Below, piece after piece: positions 23,236 through 36,474 of a stretch of DNA of 38,476 nucleotides; within the stretch, counting starts at the first letter, position 1; each line of letters begins with the position of its first letter. Source of the DNA: Bdellovibrionales bacterium (lineage in GTDB: Bacteria; Bdellovibrionota; UBA1018; CAIMNF01); NCBI GenBank assembly GCA_947372355.1, contig CANBTI010000019.1, forward strand, positions 1-38,476. Reading direction: 5' to 3'. Both the position numbers and the translations under genes were made by a program. The notes beneath the pieces are model-generated. The model did no database searches, was not told the DNA's origin, and saw only the letters and a program-made list of their open reading frames with translations.

Positions 23236-24654
23236 ATGAAATTCATTCCTATTTTATTGCTTCTATCTTCTTGTTCTACTTTGCCATATCCCAAAGTGAG
23301 TCATGACCCTAGTCGTTCTGAATTGAATCAGCTTCAAAGCTCTTTAAAAGAAACTCTTGAGCTTACCACTGATTCAAGAGGCTTGGTTCAAGCTGCAGAT
23401 CGAATGGACACCAAGGAGCAAGATCCAACCCATTATGATGCGGTTTGGGTGAGAGATAGTTTGTGGGTTTATCTTGGCTTAAGTGTGAGTGAAGATCCAA
23501 AAGAACGTGCAATTGCAAAAAAAATGCTTTTAGCACTCAGTGATTACTTTTCATCTTCTGATCAGATTAAAAGAATGGAAGCGGTGATTCGAAATCCTAA
23601 AATTATTGATTTTAAAAATGGTAAAATGAATACCATTCATATTCGATTTGATCGAAATTCCGCTACGTTTCAGGATGTTCAAGAAAACGGAAAACAGCAG
23701 ATTTGGAATCATAAACAAAACGATGCTCTAGGATTATTTTTAGATCTATTTTGTCGCGCAGTTTTAGATCAATCATTTACTTCGGCAGATTTAACTCCAT
23801 TACGCTTAAAAGCAATTCACTTATTACCAAAATATTTTAACGCAGTTCAATTTTATAAAATGGAAGATGCTGGAAGTTGGGAAGAGATAGAAAGAACAAA
23901 CACTTCATCCATTGCTTTAGTGGTTTCGGGATTAGAGCGCCTGCAAGAAGTGAGAAAAGTAATCCCAATCAAAGTGGATGACACTATTTTAAAAAGATTG
24001 ATTGAAAAAGGTTATTCCCGTATTCATCAGCAAATTGAATTAGGTGGTGAATCACCTGATTATCCTAAGAATGATCCTCGCTACAGAACAAGTGACGCAG
24101 CTTTATTAAATTTAATTTACCCTGCAAAATTAGCTGGATTAAATCTGGCTGATTACTCCAAGGTTGTGAATGCCATTGATCCCCTTATCGGAGAAATAGG
24201 CATTAAACGTTATATTGGGGATTCGTACCAATCAGGTAATTTTTGGAAAAATGAAGGTTCTACCGATGATACCAGTTCCTCTGAGAATTTCTCCAATCGT
24301 GGAAAAAAGTTCATCGAAGGAAGCGAGGCTCAGTGGTTTTTTGATTCTTGGTATTCACTCGCCATGGGAATATTAGTTCAAAAGTTTAATGATAAAAATC
24401 TGAAGATAAAACAAGTTCAGTTTTTAAACCGCGCACTAAAGCAGATTACGAAAGGTTCAAAATCGAATCCTGTTTTAGGGGCGGATGGGATACCCGTGAG
24501 AAGTGGAGCCCTTCCCGAAAGCTATAATACTCTTGTAAACCTAAAAACGGGCGTCAGAACTTTCGCGCCTAGCCCAATTACCCCATTAAATTGGGCTAAA
24601 GCCTCCATGAGGCTCGCTATTGATGAGATGAAGAATACTTCAAGTTCACATTAA
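23236..24654 (+). CDS. GH15-like lipoprotein (glucoamylase / phosphorylase-kinase-alpha-like)
   Basis: 472 residues. The signal MKFIPILLLLSSCSTLP gives a lipidated Cys at residue 13. The (alpha/alpha)6 GH15-like domain has the substrate-site motif YDAVWVRDSLWVYLGL (residues ~67-82), IWNHKQNDALGLFLD, the general-acid region EDAGSWEEIERTNTSSIAL (Glu216/217), and a late LPESYN...PLNWAKASMRLA segment, where the base glutamate and the closing helix are expected. The LPExYN...PL-W-x-A form is that of the phosphorylase-kinase-alpha-like branch. It probably cuts alpha-linked glucans at the cell surface. It differs clearly from the GH15 enzyme at 31252 and is not next to transport genes. Confidence 0.8.
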   Translation: MKFIPILLLLSSCSTLPYPKVSHDPSRSELNQLQSSLKETLELTTDSRGLVQAADRMDTKEQDPTHYDAVWVRDSLWVYLGLSVSEDPKERAIAKKMLLALSDYFSSSDQIKRMEAVIRNPKIIDFKNGKMNTIHIRFDRNSATFQDVQENGKQQIWNHKQNDALGLFLDLFCRAVLDQSFTSADLTPLRLKAIHLLPKYFNAVQFYKMEDAGSWEEIERTNTSSIALVVSGLERLQEVRKVIPIKVDDTILKRLIEKGYSRIHQQIELGGESPDYPKNDPRYRTSDAALLNLIYPAKLAGLNLADYSKVVNAIDPLIGEIGIKRYIGDSYQSGNFWKNEGSTDDTSSSENFSNRGKKFIEGSEAQWFFDSWYSLAMGILVQKFNDKNLKIKQVQFLNRALKQITKGSKSNPVLGADGIPVRSGALPESYNTLVNLKTGVRTFAPSPITPLNWAKASMRLAIDEMKNTSSSH

Positions 24655-29996: not shown

Positions 29997-31168
29997 ATTC
30001 TGGGAGTAGTGATTGCAGGTAGAATTCTTCTTGTATTAAAGGTATCTCCTGATGTGACGTACCCCTCAGGAATAGTAATTGAAGTATTGGTTAAATTAAT
30101 CTCCTGGTATTCTATTTCATCCAGTGCTCGGAACGCAGTATGGAAAGTATCAAAAGTGGAGATCATGTTTACGCATGTTACACCGGTTAATATTTTTTCC
30201 ACACCTAAGGCCCAGTCTGTATAGCCACAGTAATTTAAACCAACGTAATAAGGATGATTGAAAACATATTTCACTTCTTTTTGTTTCAGCGTGAGAATGA
30301 TGGTGTTGGGATCACCCACCGTTTTATATTCAGCTTTTGCAATTTCGTAGGTGCGAGTGTGTTTGTAGTAATTAGTTGCACAAGTACTACTTGCAGAAAG
30401 TTCTTGTGAAAAGATAAAACTATTATTAATCGTGATCGCAGTTATTTTTGAATAATAACCCGGATAAAGCGATGAAGGTACGCATCCATAATGAGTTCCC
30501 TGCATGAGAGCTTGAATGGCTGCAGTCACCACACCAACGACAAGCGTAACATTTGCGGAACTAGATGTTCCGGCAGCATTGGTGGCGGTAATAGAATAAA
30601 TAGTAGAATCCAAAGAACCAGTCGGTGTTCCAGAAATTACACAGGTAGTAGGGTTGATCGTTGCCCAAGCCGGAAGTGCCGGACTCACCGTGCAATTGGT
30701 AATCGCAGCGCCGTTATTAGTCAGTGTGGTGGGAGTTACAGTCATGAGTGTTCCGTAAACTCCACTCGTTCCTGTGGCTCCTGCGAAACTCAATGAAGGT
30801 ACAGTAGGAGCAACAGTGAGAGTAACGCTTGCTTCCGTGGATTGGCCGGCTGAGTTTGTAGGTACGATAGTAAAAGTAGTGGCAGGAAGCACTGTGGTTG
30901 GTGTTCCGCTAATTGCACAAGTAGTAGGATTAATGGTGGCCCATGCAGGAAGTGGTGGGCTAACTGTACAATTGGTGATGGTAGATCCTCCTCCTGAAGC
31001 TAAAGTAGAAGGCATCACTATCATTGCGTTATTGATCACACCCGATGTGCCGCTTGCACCACTGAAACTAAGCGATACCTCATCAGAATCCACTCCACGA
31101 ATGGCAAAACAGCCTTCGAGAATAAAGCTTATAAAAGTGATTAAAATAATCCCAAATAGTTTCTTCAA
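29993..31168 (-). CDS. Lipoprotein with two putative Ig-like (He_PIG) domains
   Basis: 391 residues from a TTG start. The signal ends in the lipobox LEGC (Cys about residue 20). Two units of roughly 90 residues follow, each with the He_PIG signature: 'TNCTVSPPLPAWATINPTTC', 'ISGTPT', then a 'TIVPTNSAGQS' strand (residues ~34-118 and ~124-208). The C-terminal 180 residues (from AIQALMQGTHYGC onward) are beta-rich with several Cys and Tyr and have no recognised family. He_PIG modules are common in surface and adhesive proteins. Its ribosome site sits in a 10-bp hairpin. The DNA of the two Ig units is also similar, so the duplication is probably recent. Confidence 0.8.
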   Translation of the reverse strand: MKKLFGIILITFISFILEGCFAIRGVDSDEVSLSFSGASGTSGVINNAMIVMPSTLASGGGSTITNCTVSPPLPAWATINPTTCAISGTPTTVLPATTFTIVPTNSAGQSTEASVTLTVAPTVPSLSFAGATGTSGVYGTLMTVTPTTLTNNGAAITNCTVSPALPAWATINPTTCVISGTPTGSLDSTIYSITATNAAGTSSSANVTLVVGVVTAAIQALMQGTHYGCVPSSLYPGYYSKITAITINNSFIFSQELSASSTCATNYYKHTRTYEIAKAEYKTVGDPNTIILTLKQKEVKYVFNHPYYVGLNYCGYTDWALGVEKILTGVTCVNMISTFDTFHTAFRALDEIEYQEINLTNTSITIPEGYVTSGDTFNTRRILPAITTPRI

Positions 31169-31198
31169 AATTCCCCCACTTATGATTATGGGGGAATT
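31169..31198 (-). promoter_or_regulatory. Perfect 10-bp inverted repeat covering the ribosome site of the Ig-repeat lipoprotein
   Basis: On the minus strand AATTCCCCCA and TGGGGGAATT form a perfect stem with a 10-base loop. The right arm contains GGGGG, the only Shine-Dalgarno-like sequence, four bases ahead of the TTG start. A hairpin in the mRNA would bury it. An alternative reading is an intrinsic terminator (short T run TTTT after the stem) for the upstream PTS-glucoamylase operon. Confidence 0.55.
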
Positions 31199-31251
31199 AA
31201 TAAAGAATGTGAAGTGTGTCAGCGTTGACTAGAAAATTAAATGAAACTAAT

Positions 31252-32538
31252 TTAATTTTTAAAGCAAGCACGGTACGCGGTGATATATGAAGTGTAACTC
31301 CAGGTAAGATCGCGAGCCCCTTGTTCATAACCATTATTGCGGTTGAACTGCTCAGAGAATGATCCATCCGCATTGACGTGTGTGATAGCGCGATTAAACT
31401 GGGCGATCGCAGTATCCCCTAATTGTTTAAAGCTATGTGCATTCATTTTATTGGATTTCACTAAATCGCAGGAAAACTCTGCAAGTGCCATTGTGGATAA
31501 AAACCACGGATTGCCAGCACTAAAATCAAAACCACTGTAAACATCATCGGGGTAGCGGCCCAATGCAGTTCCAAGAGCAGCGCCTGCTTTATTCACGCGC
31601 ATTTGATTGATCGGATAAATGTTGTTGAATGTTTCAATCATGCGATTCACAGTCGTGATCATGGCTTGAATCGGCACATAAAATTGGCCATCAAAAGTTT
31701 GAATTGCAGCGAGTAAAACGGCGATATCAAGATCGCTTTTTTTGTGAGGTAATCCTGGGCTTTTGTTGAGAGCGTATTTAATGATGCCTGTGGATGAATC
31801 CACAAAAGCACTTAGATAGTGATCTATGTTTTTAGATTGCTCGAGATAGAACTTTGATGCCTCAGGATCATTCATCGTTTGAGCAAGAGCTGCGCCCTTG
31901 AGCAATGCAACCTTCTGAACAGTGAGGGTGTAGAAGTGCATCGCACGTTCTTCTTCCCAAAGATCAAAGCTGGTTTCATTCCAGTGATGAGCCACATATT
32001 CCAAATCGCGTTTGATTAAAGTATTAGCAGGAATTTCAGCGCGATAAAGCTTTGCTTTCACTTCATCAAATCGAGCTTGTTTAATCATGTTATTGGCAAT
32101 GCTGATGGCAGTGATAGAGCGAAGGGCAGGACCATCGTTTTGAGGACGTCCCCAAGGTTCAAGATTTGCCTTTCCGCTCACGTAGAATTTAGGTTCCCCT
32201 AAACCCACTAGCGTTTGAGTTTGCTGACGGCTCATTTCAAAATCAATCCAGCGTGAAATTTTTGCTTGAAGCTTTTTTTGAAGAGTTGGATTGGTAGTTG
32301 GATCTTCAGCGAGTTGAACCACCATCTTCATGGTGAGAGAAGTATCGCGTACCCAATCATAATAATAATCAGGAGCAGACTGAGAAGGAGAGGCTACGGT
32401 AGCTCCATTATCGAGCATGTTTGCAAGTGCACCCTGAATAGATCGATCATATTGAGTTCGAAACTGAGTGCTGATCTGTGCGTTGGCACTCAAGGTAAAC
32501 ATTAGTCCTAAATTAATCCAAAAAAGTGTACGTACCAT
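31252..32538 (-). CDS. Secreted GH15 glucoamylase
   Basis: 428 residues with a signal peptide (cut near SANA|QIS). The GH15 catalytic domain has all main landmarks: YYYDWVRDTSLTM (substrate Asp/Arg, residues ~58-70), GRPQNDGPALRS (residues 130-141), the general-acid motif DLWEEERAMHFYT with Glu195, and DGSFSEQFNRNNGY with the base Glu396, followed by the closing ARDLTWSYTSYITAY. There is no carbohydrate-binding module. It releases glucose from the non-reducing ends of starch or glycogen. The start ATG follows the ptsI stop by two bases, with the ribosome site inside ptsI. It is therefore the last gene of the PTS operon. Confidence 0.93.
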   Translation of the reverse strand: MVRTLFWINLGLMFTLSANAQISTQFRTQYDRSIQGALANMLDNGATVASPSQSAPDYYYDWVRDTSLTMKMVVQLAEDPTTNPTLQKKLQAKISRWIDFEMSRQQTQTLVGLGEPKFYVSGKANLEPWGRPQNDGPALRSITAISIANNMIKQARFDEVKAKLYRAEIPANTLIKRDLEYVAHHWNETSFDLWEEERAMHFYTLTVQKVALLKGAALAQTMNDPEASKFYLEQSKNIDHYLSAFVDSSTGIIKYALNKSPGLPHKKSDLDIAVLLAAIQTFDGQFYVPIQAMITTVNRMIETFNNIYPINQMRVNKAGAALGTALGRYPDDVYSGFDFSAGNPWFLSTMALAEFSCDLVKSNKMNAHSFKQLGDTAIAQFNRAITHVNADGSFSEQFNRNNGYEQGARDLTWSYTSYITAYRACFKN

Positions 32539-32540
32539 TT

Positions 32541-34283
32541 CTATTTTTCCCCCATTAAAAATGTTTTTAACTTACTTTTTACTTCTGTTTCATCCTTGGC
32601 AGAAAGAACCTCGGTTAAAAGTTTCTGACAAAGTTTAAAATCAAATTTTGAAATCAGCGAGCGACGGCTCATCACTTCACACGAAACCATGCTCAGCTTT
32701 TTAAATCCCATTGCAATCCAAAGTGGAATGAAATCTTCTACGCCTCCGAGTTCGCCGCAAATGCTGGTGTCTAATCCTGCTTTTTTTGCTTCACTCGCCA
32801 ACAGATTCATCATTCTGATGAATCCTAAATTATAAGGAGAATAAAGATATTGAAGTTCAGGATTCATGCGATCCACAGCCATTGAATACTGCATGAGATC
32901 GTTTGTGCCAACACTCACGAAAGAAACAATTCCTTTGAGTTCATTGAGTTCAAATACAAGGGATGGGATTTCTACCATCACGCCTAGTTTGTAAGGTTTT
33001 GCTGGATATTCTTTGAGTAATTTTAATTCTTCGTGGCACTCTTGAATGATACCCGCTGCTTGCTTTGCTTCGCTGGCTCTACTGATCATGGGAATCATGA
33101 TCGAAAGATTACCCAAAGTGTTTGCTAGTAACATTGCCTTAATCTGAGTTTTAAACAATTCAAGATCTTTTAAGCAATAGCGGAACGCTCTCACGCCAAG
33201 AAATGGATTTTCTTCTTTTGCAATTTGAATGTAAGGGATTGGTTTATCACCCCCAATATCAATCGTACGAATGATCACTTCTTTGGGCGCAAGGGTAGTG
33301 AGAACTTCTTGATAGATCTTTTTTTGTTCCTCAAGAGTAGGGGCTTGATCACGTTCCATGAAGAGAAATTCAGTGCGAAAAAGCCCAATCCCTTCTACAT
33401 CATCTTGAGTGGCAGTGATTGCATCTGCAGAATTGCCAATGTTGCCAAAGAGTTGAATGGAGTGATCATCAGCAGTGCGGGTTTTTTTACCTCGAAATGC
33501 TTCTGTTTTTTTCTTCTCGCCTAGATGGAGGTTGGATTTATTTTCAAAATAATCTTTTAGTTTTGAATCTTGGATTAAATAAATGGAACCTGTTTCACCA
33601 TCAATGCCAATTTCTTCAGGCGATAAAAAAACTTTGGTGGCATTGGCTACGCCCACAATCGCAGGGATTCCCATTGTACGAGCGATGATTGCAGTGTGAG
33701 ATGTTTCTCCACCTTTTTCGATGATCATTCCTAATACATTTTTTCGATCCATCGTGATGGTTTGAGAAGGAGTTAAATCTTTTGCCACTAAGATAACGGG
33801 AGTGGGAATGTTTTGAAGATTATTTCCTTCACTTGGATCTAAGGCTTCAATTAATTGATTTTTTAAATCTCTTAAATCTAAAACGCGTTCACGCATGTAT
33901 TCAGATTCAGAAGACTTAAAAATTTCAATCTGAGTTTTAAATGAATTTTCAACAGCCATTTCGGCGGAAGTATTTTCTTCCTTGATGATTTGAAGAATCG
34001 GATTTACGAGTTCTTCATCTTGAATCATCATGGAATGTGCTTCAAAAATTTCGGCTTCGTGTTCGCCCACTTCTGTTCTTGTTTTAGAAATTAAGATTTC
34101 TATGTTTTTTAGTACTAGGGATTGAGCTGTTTTGAATCGATTGGATTCAATCTCAAGGCCTTGACCTATCTCTGCAATGAGATGTTTATTGTTTCTAAAC
34201 ACCCATGGTTTTCCCACAGCAAAACCTCGGGAAACCCCTTTACCTTGCGCTAGTGGTAGATGAGATAGCTCGTTAGGAATCAT
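32541..34283 (-). CDS. ptsI: PTS Enzyme I (phosphoenolpyruvate-protein phosphotransferase)
   Basis: 580 residues, standard Enzyme I size. The phospho-accepting His196 is in GGETSHTAIIARTMGIPAIVG. The PEP-binding domain follows with LFRTEFLFMERDQAPTLEEQ, IRTIDIGGDKPIPYI and ENPFLGVRAFRYCLKD, plus the catalytic Cys loop TSICGELGG. Enzyme I takes phosphate from PEP and passes it to HPr. The start overlaps the ptsH stop by 4 bp (ATGA), a sign of translational coupling. Confidence 0.96.
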   Translation of the reverse strand: MIPNELSHLPLAQGKGVSRGFAVGKPWVFRNNKHLIAEIGQGLEIESNRFKTAQSLVLKNIEILISKTRTEVGEHEAEIFEAHSMMIQDEELVNPILQIIKEENTSAEMAVENSFKTQIEIFKSSESEYMRERVLDLRDLKNQLIEALDPSEGNNLQNIPTPVILVAKDLTPSQTITMDRKNVLGMIIEKGGETSHTAIIARTMGIPAIVGVANATKVFLSPEEIGIDGETGSIYLIQDSKLKDYFENKSNLHLGEKKKTEAFRGKKTRTADDHSIQLFGNIGNSADAITATQDDVEGIGLFRTEFLFMERDQAPTLEEQKKIYQEVLTTLAPKEVIIRTIDIGGDKPIPYIQIAKEENPFLGVRAFRYCLKDLELFKTQIKAMLLANTLGNLSIMIPMISRASEAKQAAGIIQECHEELKLLKEYPAKPYKLGVMVEIPSLVFELNELKGIVSFVSVGTNDLMQYSMAVDRMNPELQYLYSPYNLGFIRMMNLLASEAKKAGLDTSICGELGGVEDFIPLWIAMGFKKLSMVSCEVMSRRSLISKFDFKLCQKLLTEVLSAKDETEVKSKLKTFLMGEK

Positions 34284-34543
34284 GCTTGTTTGAATTCGCT
34301 TTCCACTAAATCAGAAATAGATTTGCTAGCTTGTTCAGCATCAACACCATCAATGATGAGTTTAAATTCTTGATCTTTTTTTAATCCAAGACCCATCAGC
34401 GCCATGATTGATTTTGCGCTTTTGATTTGTCCGTTCACTTCAATTTGAATTGAAGATTGGAACTCAGCAGCTTTTTTAGCTAAAATTCCTGCCGGACGAG
34501 CGTGTAAACCTTCATTGTTTTTAATTTTTAAGAATACTTCCAT
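34280..34543 (-). CDS. ptsH: PTS phosphocarrier protein HPr
   Basis: 87 residues. The phospho-His14 is in EGLHARPAG, as in all HPr. A serine at residue 45 in AKSIMALMGLGL matches Ser46 of HPr, the regulatory site of HPr kinase in many bacteria. HPr carries phosphate from Enzyme I to Enzyme II. Its start lies 16 bp inside the end of the IICBA gene and its stop overlaps ptsI. All three genes are thus translated from one message. Confidence 0.95.
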   Translation of the reverse strand: MEVFLKIKNNEGLHARPAGILAKKAAEFQSSIQIEVNGQIKSAKSIMALMGLGLKKDQEFKLIIDGVDAEQASKSISDLVESEFKQA

Positions 34544-36474
34544 AATGCATCTCCTGATTTAAGCTGTTTGCCCGGTTGAGCAATCATTTGAATGTTTTTA
34601 AATTGATCTGGATTAGTGATCACCATTGGCGTGATGAGTGATTTAGCACTTTGTTCAATCAGTTTAAGATCAAATTCAATGAGTTTTTGACCTTGAACCA
34701 CTTGGTCACCATTTTTTACCCATGCCTTGAATCCTTTTCCATTCATTTTAACCGTATCGATCCCTATGTGAATGAGGAGCTCAACACCATCTTTAGAAAT
34801 CAATCCAACAGCATGGTTAGTGTGGAAAATGGTAGCCACTTCTCCATCAAATGGAGCAACAACAATTCCTTCGCTAGGAATGATTCCAATGGTTTTACCC
34901 ATGATTTCTCCAGCAAATGTTTCATCGGGAATTTCGTTCAAAGAAACTACTTTTCCTGCAATCGGTGAAGTAATTTTTTTGCTTTGATCGTTTTTAATTA
35001 CATTTTGAATTTCAGTCTTTAAGAAATCTGATTCGACTCCAAAAACAATTTGAACATTCCCACCACCCGCTTTCATCACACCCGATGAACCCAAACGTTT
35101 TAAAGCAGGTTGATCGATCAACTGATCGTTTTTAACGATCAAGCGAAGACGGGTGATGCAAGCTTGCATGTCTATAATATTTTCACTGCCTCCAATGGCA
35201 ACGAGTACACCAGTGGCTTTCTCGGTTAAGTTTTTATTGGATGAAGTTGCTGGTGCGATTTCCGAATCATTTTCAAGATTCATATCCTCATCTTCTCGGC
35301 CTGGAGTTTTAAAATTGAAAAATCCAATAGCCCAATAAAATGTGAAGAAATAAGTGAGAGCAATGACTGGCCCTACGATGAAGAACAAATAAGAGATATT
35401 TTTTTGATTAAAAAACCCTAGCGCTAAATCGATCACACCGGATGAGAAAGTGTATCCCAAATGAATATCAAAATAACTGGTTAAATATCCTGATAAAAAG
35501 GTGATCGCTGCGTGAGCAATGTAGAGAGGGGGAGCTACGAAGGTATAAGCAAATTCGATAGGCTCGGTAATCCCAGTGATGATGGAAGTGAGGGATGCCG
35601 ATAGCATTACCCCTGCAATGAGTTTACGATTTTTTGCTTTTGCTCTTAAGGTCATTGCTAAAGCTGCAGCAGGTAGACCAAATATCATGATTGGAAACTC
35701 AGAAGCCATGAATCTACCCGCAGTTGGATCTCCTGCGAAGTAACGTGTGGAATCCCCATGAACCACTGATCCTGTTTGAGTTACAAATGATCCGAATTCA
35801 TATAAAAAGCTTGGGTAAAATACATGGTGTAATCCCACTGGGATGAGCAAACGTTTTACCGATGCGTAAATACTCGGGCCATAAGCAGAGGCCATCACGG
35901 ATTCACCGAATGCATGAATGCCTTCTTGAATGGGAGGCCAAATGATAACAAATAACAATGCGAGAAATACGGATGAAAAAACAGAGATGATTGGTATCAA
36001 GCGCTTGCCTGAAAAGAATCCCAATACTGGATGAAGTTTTAGAGTGTGGTAACGGTTGTAAAGCCAAGCCACTAAGAATCCCACACAAATACCACCGAAA
36101 ACTCCGGTGTTGATTGCACTCGGTAAATGGAGAATGTCTCCCACTGTTTTTAATACAGTGGCGAATGCAAAGTAACCAGTTACTGCTCCTAAACCAGCGA
36201 TGCCGGCAGTGTTCGTGAAGCCAAGTGCTACACCGACAGCAAAAATAAGAGAGAGCTGTTCAAACACGCTGAGTCCGCTGGTGTAGAGAACTTTTCCGAG
36301 TTGATAAGAAAATGATTTTTCGTTGTGAGTGAAATCAGTAAACATACGCCCAAGCGCTACCATCAATCCTGCAGCTGGAAGAACAGCTACGGGAAGAGTG
36401 AGTGCTTGACCGAGTCGTTGAAGAGTGGCGAACGCGCTGCTCGTAAGGCGTTTAAAAGGGCTGGTAGTTTGCAT
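34528..36474 (-). CDS. PTS glucose/N-acetylglucosamine-family transporter, IICBA fusion
   Basis: 648 residues. Domain order is IIC (residues ~15-395, about ten membrane spans), IIB (~415-480) with the phospho-Cys in MQACITRLRL, and IIA (~495-645) with the phospho-His in LIHIGIDTVKMNGKGF. The order and length match NagE and PtsG of the glucose family, and the two cannot be separated without alignment. The neighbouring glucoamylase favours glucose as substrate. It imports and phosphorylates the sugar. It is the first gene of the four-gene operon, with a TGTCA-N6-TGACA palindrome 20 bp upstream of the ATG. Confidence 0.92.
   Translation of the reverse strand: MQTTSPFKRLTSSAFATLQRLGQALTLPVAVLPAAGLMVALGRMFTDFTHNEKSFSYQLGKVLYTSGLSVFEQLSLIFAVGVALGFTNTAGIAGLGAVTGYFAFATVLKTVGDILHLPSAINTGVFGGICVGFLVAWLYNRYHTLKLHPVLGFFSGKRLIPIISVFSSVFLALLFVIIWPPIQEGIHAFGESVMASAYGPSIYASVKRLLIPVGLHHVFYPSFLYEFGSFVTQTGSVVHGDSTRYFAGDPTAGRFMASEFPIMIFGLPAAALAMTLRAKAKNRKLIAGVMLSASLTSIITGITEPIEFAYTFVAPPLYIAHAAITFLSGYLTSYFDIHLGYTFSSGVIDLALGFFNQKNISYLFFIVGPVIALTYFFTFYWAIGFFNFKTPGREDEDMNLENDSEIAPATSSNKNLTEKATGVLVAIGGSENIIDMQACITRLRLIVKNDQLIDQPALKRLGSSGVMKAGGGNVQIVFGVESDFLKTEIQNVIKNDQSKKITSPIAGKVVSLNEIPDETFAGEIMGKTIGIIPSEGIVVAPFDGEVATIFHTNHAVGLISKDGVELLIHIGIDTVKMNGKGFKAWVKNGDQVVQGQKLIEFDLKLIEQSAKSLITPMVITNPDQFKNIQMIAQPGKQLKSGDALWKYS

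Follow-up and report, generated by a model that had tools for sequence, protein, structure and literature searches.

Do the permease, HPr and enzyme I of a PTS and the glucoamylase encoded beside them form one functional unit, and which sugar would such a unit handle? The question is raised by four genes in a 38,476-nucleotide stretch of a Bdellovibrionales genome (contig CANBTI010000019.1; referred to as the window), all of which are located on the minus strand in the order IICBA-HPr-ptsI-GH15, from position 36474 down to 31252 (Table 1). We consider it probable that they constitute a single coupled alpha-glucan operon, in which an exported GH15 enzyme would free glucose and a dedicated PTS would import and phosphorylate it.

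The genes are tightly packed. The reading frames of IICBA and HPr share 16 bp (34528-34543), those of HPr and ptsI share the 4 bp ATGA (34280-34283), and the ATG of GH15 is located two bases downstream of the ptsI stop. The original prediction had given both overlaps, the 2-bp gap and the ribosome site inside ptsI exactly to the base. Scans for promoters and terminators gave results close to chance level. A strong hairpin downstream of GH15 overlies the start region of the next ORF, which has Ig-like domains; it is possible that the hairpin marks the end of the operon as a terminator, or that it acts as a lid on the start of the next gene.

Table 1. Positions of the operon genes and associated sequence features in the window.
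Feature	Position	Strand	Details
PTS enzyme IICBA, glucose/GlcNAc family	34528..36474	-	648 aa; first gene of operon; Pfam EIIC/EIIB/EIIA
HPr phosphocarrier	34280..34543	-	87 aa; PF00381 86 bits; GLHARPA motif at residue 12
Enzyme I (ptsI)	32541..34283	-	580 aa; TIGR01417 510.6 bits, cut-off 341.7
GH15 glucoamylase, compact fungal-like type	31252..32538	-	428 aa; PF00723 230 bits
RBS-like GGGGGA for GH15, within ptsI	32548..32553	-	sequence
RBS-like AGGAG for HPr, within IICBA	34551..34555	-	sequence
Strong hairpin, between GH15 and next same-strand ORF (31168-29993)	31161..31207	-	MFE -22.9 kcal/mol, z -5.2

The GH15 protein matches the whole catalytic domain of PF00723 (profile positions 15-426 of 427; 230.3 bits, cut-off 22). 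The catalytic acid E195 (in DLWEE) and base E396 (in SEQ) align with those of the fungal enzymes and are invariant in the genus. The closest solved structures, 27xj (E=4.5e-72), 6fhw and 1ayx, align over nearly the whole catalytic domain; the best solved relatives are a 438-residue glucan 1,4-alpha-glucosidase and fungal glucoamylases. The catalytic glutamates and the motifs WRD, GRPQNDGPALR and GRYPED are common to the window protein, the fungal-type enzymes (1ayx, 1agm, 2vn4 and 6fhw) and 27xj. Family membership and catalytic residues together suggest that the enzyme releases glucose from alpha-1,4-glucans. Its N-terminus, MVRTLFWINLGLMFTLSANA, is of the Sec type as judged by eye and from hydropathy, and the N-termini of the relatives are similar, suggesting export via the Sec pathway. 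The Pfam search of the protein revealed no starch-binding, carbohydrate-binding or surface domain, only the catalytic domain and the putative export signal. Elsewhere in the window, a predicted lipoprotein-like protein (23236-24654, plus strand) displayed a borderline GH15 match of 21.5 bits against the cut-off of 22, and a 60% identical partner is encoded near the IICBA operon in the genus member G003 (L057:1-783). This protein is possibly a diverged member of the hydrolase clan to which GH15 belongs.

All PTS domains scored far above their Pfam cut-offs, with 307, 88 and 86 bits for the domains of enzyme I, 86 for HPr, 216 for EIIC, 168 for EIIA and 42 for EIIB. The phosphorylation sites are intact: the IIB cysteine in CITRLR, the IIA histidine in LIHIGIDTV, GLHARPA in HPr, and GGETSHTAI and CGE in enzyme I. 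IICBA, with its EIIC, EIIB and EIIA domains and their phosphorylation residues, thus has the features of a glucose-family PTS permease, and the TIGR01417 match and the motifs of enzyme I and HPr likewise identify these two proteins. The original prediction of a complete PTS was right, and the operon also holds the only match to the enzyme I N-domain (PF05524) in its own genome, a 93%-complete assembly, and the only EIIC above the cut-off; one other EIIC match was partial (18.5 bits, cut-off 30.7). A scan of the proteins on the genome contigs returned two loci only. Judging from the 93%-complete assembly, the IICBA-HPr-EI of the operon makes up the entire PTS of the organism. A single enzyme I and a single EIIC point to a private import line for the product of GH15 rather than a general sugar-sensing network. 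No match to an HPr kinase gene was obtained in the genome, in a search that also missed Bacillus subtilis, one of its controls.

In the proposed mechanism, the Sec-exported enzyme would act on the non-reducing ends of maltodextrin, starch or glycogen to release glucose, which would enter through IICBA and be phosphorylated during import. The phosphate would be relayed from PEP to enzyme I, HPr, IIA and IIB, the protein components of which are all encoded in the operon.

The original prediction had called the linkage of GH15 and PTS genes unusual and had proposed a survey of their adjacency in other genomes. We used an alignment of the GH15 proteins of the genus as a query against 369 genomes of the phylum, 117 of which had a strong match, and scanned the regions around those matches that lie outside the genus (124 loci) for PTS genes. 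The adjacency is present in relatives and is recurrent in the phylum rather than unusual: GH15 adjoins PTS genes in 21 further genomes from 14 genera and at least three families, as compared to about 0.2 genomes expected by random placement, a comparison for which a P value would be meaningless because the genomes are related. Four arrangements were observed, with GH15 last as in the window (G182, G109, G110, G135), first (G217, G219, G221, G224, G245-G248, G251, G253, G366), divergent (G101, G103, G104, G084) or convergent (G137, G216). GH15 and the PTS genes were mostly less than 60 bp apart, with many gaps of 0 or -4. The largest gaps included in the count measured 654 bp in G247 and about 375 bp in G245; G303, in which the PTS is located about 1.9 kb from GH15, was left out of the count. 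On the GH15 tree, linkage has changed at least seven times, and five of these changes are forced by supported branches. Most GH15 loci in the phylum are not linked to a PTS. It is the repeated re-pairing in differing gene orders that argues most strongly for a shared function, and its recurrence across the phylum suggests that GH15 and the PTS work together.

Some of the loci surveyed had individual features. G251 contains two GH15 genes (L186, L213), each next to a different part of the PTS, with HPr-EI on one contig and IICBA on the other. In G366 (L135), the genes after GH15 encode a 239-aa IIB-IIA protein that lacks an EIIC part, and then HPr and enzyme I. The ptsI gene of G137 (L142:5637-7272) is seemingly split into two overlapping frames of 430 and 118 aa, which may reflect a frameshift, an assembly error or a decaying gene.

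Within the genus, PTS genes were identified in eight of the 12 genomes, the same eight for enzyme I and EIIC. The order IICBA-HPr-ptsI is found in all eight, and GH15 follows ptsI in each of the seven in which this can be read; in the eighth, G004, the contig ends inside ptsI. The 16-bp overlap of IICBA and HPr is kept in several relatives, and the junction of ptsI and GH15 is a 4-bp overlap in most. The description of the four genes as a self-contained, tightly coupled unit is thereby borne out, with a layout that is kept in the genus. Since these overlaps recur in relatives and the adjacency recurs throughout the phylum, we conclude that the layout is more than chance.

In most members, the unit is flanked by a conserved comF/oxidoreductase-like pair on one side and rarA-mltD-murJ on the other. 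At this site, G001, G006 and G009 have GH15 alone with no PTS, and G007 has neither. The operon of the window genome is located away from the rarA site, with rarA on another contig and with other neighbors (G000:C63, L092); it may have moved or been re-acquired, the site in its sister G007 being empty. In a tree of the neighboring genes, the three GH15-only genomes formed one clade and G007 was the sister of the window genome, which implies at least two changes in PTS content, most simply two losses. Because the deeper branches of this tree are weak, we infer rather than observe the history: the common ancestor of the genus probably had the operon, and at least two losses of the PTS part followed, one of which left GH15 in place. 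In the GH15 tree, the genus members with a PTS link (91/94) are set apart from those without one (100/98), as expected for vertical descent. That sister species have kept GH15 without the PTS indicates that the enzyme does not depend on the PTS importer of the operon, and the GH15-only species presumably use another importer together with a ROK kinase. Glucokinase was uninformative as a discriminator: PF02685 is all but missing, and almost every member, with or without the PTS, has one ROK kinase.

Clusters with a similar organization are known. A Bacillus-type ptsG-ptsH-ptsI cluster on a Priestia plasmid (NZ_CP069404) has the same gene order as the window and an IICBA that is about 42% identical, but differs in that no glycosidase gene was seen, an antiterminator gene is located upstream and position 202 is E. 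In the IICBA-HPr-EI-nagA cluster on a Deinococcus proteolyticus plasmid (NC_015169), the same three genes are followed by a fourth, sugar-specific gene that overlaps ptsI by 4 bp; this gene, however, encodes a GlcNAc-6-P deacetylase and not an exported glucoamylase, and position 202 is N. The Deinococcus cluster is the closest architectural analogue, with nagA in the slot of GH15. A private PTS combined with a single sugar-specific enzyme is thus a known arrangement; what is new here is a fungal-type glucoamylase, predicted to be exported, in the sugar-specific slot of a private PTS, a combination that has been rebuilt repeatedly. Among solved structures, E. coli PtsG (IICB-Glc; 8qsr, 9hnp) is the closest to the IICB part (E about 1e-103), but in E. 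coli IIA is a separate protein and the PTS is a general network, whereas IIA is fused in the window IICBA. Three members of the order, G024, G028 and G036 (L062, L063 and L064), have a self-contained PTS of the same family in two genes, an IIA-HPr-EI fusion and an IICB. These systems differ from that of the window in the fused enzyme I, the E. coli PtsG residue type and the lack of a link to GH15; a GlcNAc identity was rejected for them, as none of the E. coli PtsG glucose contacts is altered in their IIC. When plasmids were searched with GH15, the matches obtained were all distant, and the best of them (Pseudoalteromonas) had no PTS neighbor. The open literature that was searched, a part of the whole, contained nothing relevant on a GH15-PTS pairing or a Bacteriovorax glucoamylase.

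The sugar specificity was assessed by comparison with the cryo-EM structure of E. coli PtsG, in which glucose is surrounded by E202, R203, H211, H212, N215, K257, T297, E298 and F337, and E202 contacts the sugar hydroxyls (PMC11393339). Eight of 11 positions of the PtsG glucose site are kept in IICBA, the differences being E202K, N215Y and K257M. The protein scored below the cut-offs of the glucose-specific NCBIfam models (TIGR02002, 453.9 against 591.8; NF008301, 408.1 against 647) and of the GlcNAc-specific NagE model (TIGR01998, 438.6 against 553.2), and since neither specificity is reached we have not filed it as PtsG. The transporters linked to GH15 are of two types. The first is a clade of 23 members, including the window IICBA, on a long and fully supported branch, all with K-R-H-H-Y-M where PtsG has E-R-H-H-N-K; the sampling of this K-type clade is GH15-centered, as its transporters were drawn from the surroundings of GH15 genes. 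Borrelia BBB29 shares K-Y-M, yet falls outside the clade, and the paper on this protein gives no measured substrate. The second type, represented by G101, G103, G104, G216 and the looser case G303, resembles E. coli PtsG and keeps its glucose contacts in full; such transporters pair with GH15 in three genera, in two of which (g52, g91) GH15 immediately adjoins the PTS cluster. As either type can adjoin GH15, the simplest substrate for both to share is glucose, which is likely to be the imported sugar. The part of the original prediction that concerned glucose import is supported by the chemistry of GH15, the absence of nagA and the PtsG-type partners elsewhere, and is weakened by the three altered site residues and by scores below cut-off with both the glucose and the GlcNAc specificity models.

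NagA is needed for the usual route of GlcNAc utilization, and no nagA match above 31 bits (cut-off 226) was obtained in the genus. NagE has Asn at position 202, where the window IICBA has Lys. With no nagA in the genus and the NagE residues unmatched, import of GlcNAc was rejected as the main reading. The window genome also contains a NagB-like gene and a PIG-L deacetylase gene; in the genus, two such genes are found close together in a conserved neighborhood (L060:5470-7593, with matching places in L061 and L066). The pair is present in genus members both with and without the PTS and thus does not track it; it possibly provides an amino-sugar step without NagA, and the amino-sugar route is not fully closed.

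It is unlikely, in our view, that IICBA imports another product or companion sugar of GH15, such as maltose, another alpha-glucobiose or an amino sugar, with Lys at position 202 as the mark of a changed specificity. The residues shared by the entire K-type clade on its long branch agree with such a change, as does the observation that residue 202 tracks the sugar in the few comparators (E in PtsG, N in NagE and in the nagA-linked Deinococcus system) and that, in PtsG, it touches the hydroxyls of the sugar (PMC11393339). However, Y215 and M257 are also found in a Gram-positive PtsG-type protein from a ptsG-ptsH-ptsI cluster that is preceded by an antiterminator gene, the genus has no nagA, the predicted product of GH15 is glucose, and elsewhere the position beside GH15 is occupied by PtsG-type transporters in which all glucose contacts are kept. 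We are similarly doubtful about the suggestion that the K-type clade represents a new PTS specificity for a GH15-related sugar (an alpha-glucobiose or an unusual form of glucose), and hence a depolymerase-plus-permease module particular to the phylum.

Glucose import, which we prefer, leaves the site of hydrolysis to be considered. A location of GH15 in the periplasm, where its substrates would be small maltodextrins, endogenous glucans or trehalose instead of outside polymers or prey glycogen, is a possibility that we take seriously, if with less confidence than the operon reading itself. E. coli uses a similar logic, in that its periplasmic trehalase feeds the glucose PTS. The periplasm is the default address in a diderm for a protein that has a Sec-type N-terminus and no carbohydrate-binding or surface domain; against this, the close solved relatives are named glucoamylases, and as for trehalose, GH15 scored 20 bits with trehalase models that have cut-offs of 820-1000 and is not near them. 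That GH15 is only a hitchhiker beside a PTS operon is highly improbable: the enzyme does persist without the PTS in three genus members and most of its loci in the phylum are unlinked, but direct adjacency has been repeated in four arrangements across 14 further genera, far above the random expectation, and the overlap of the reading frames is conserved.

In Bdellovibrio bacteriovorus, PTS genes have been reported as incomplete or absent (PMC2405797). The relatives studied here keep a PTS that is reduced to one permease and is tied repeatedly, in varied gene orders, to a glucoamylase predicted to be exported. The natural variants of the operon, with GH15 first, last, divergent or convergent, or with the PTS lost, constitute a test set for the evolution of a depolymerase-importer pair, and the K-type clade provides transporters with an altered sugar site. 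For these mostly uncultured bacteria, the pairing amounts to a direct prediction about their diet.
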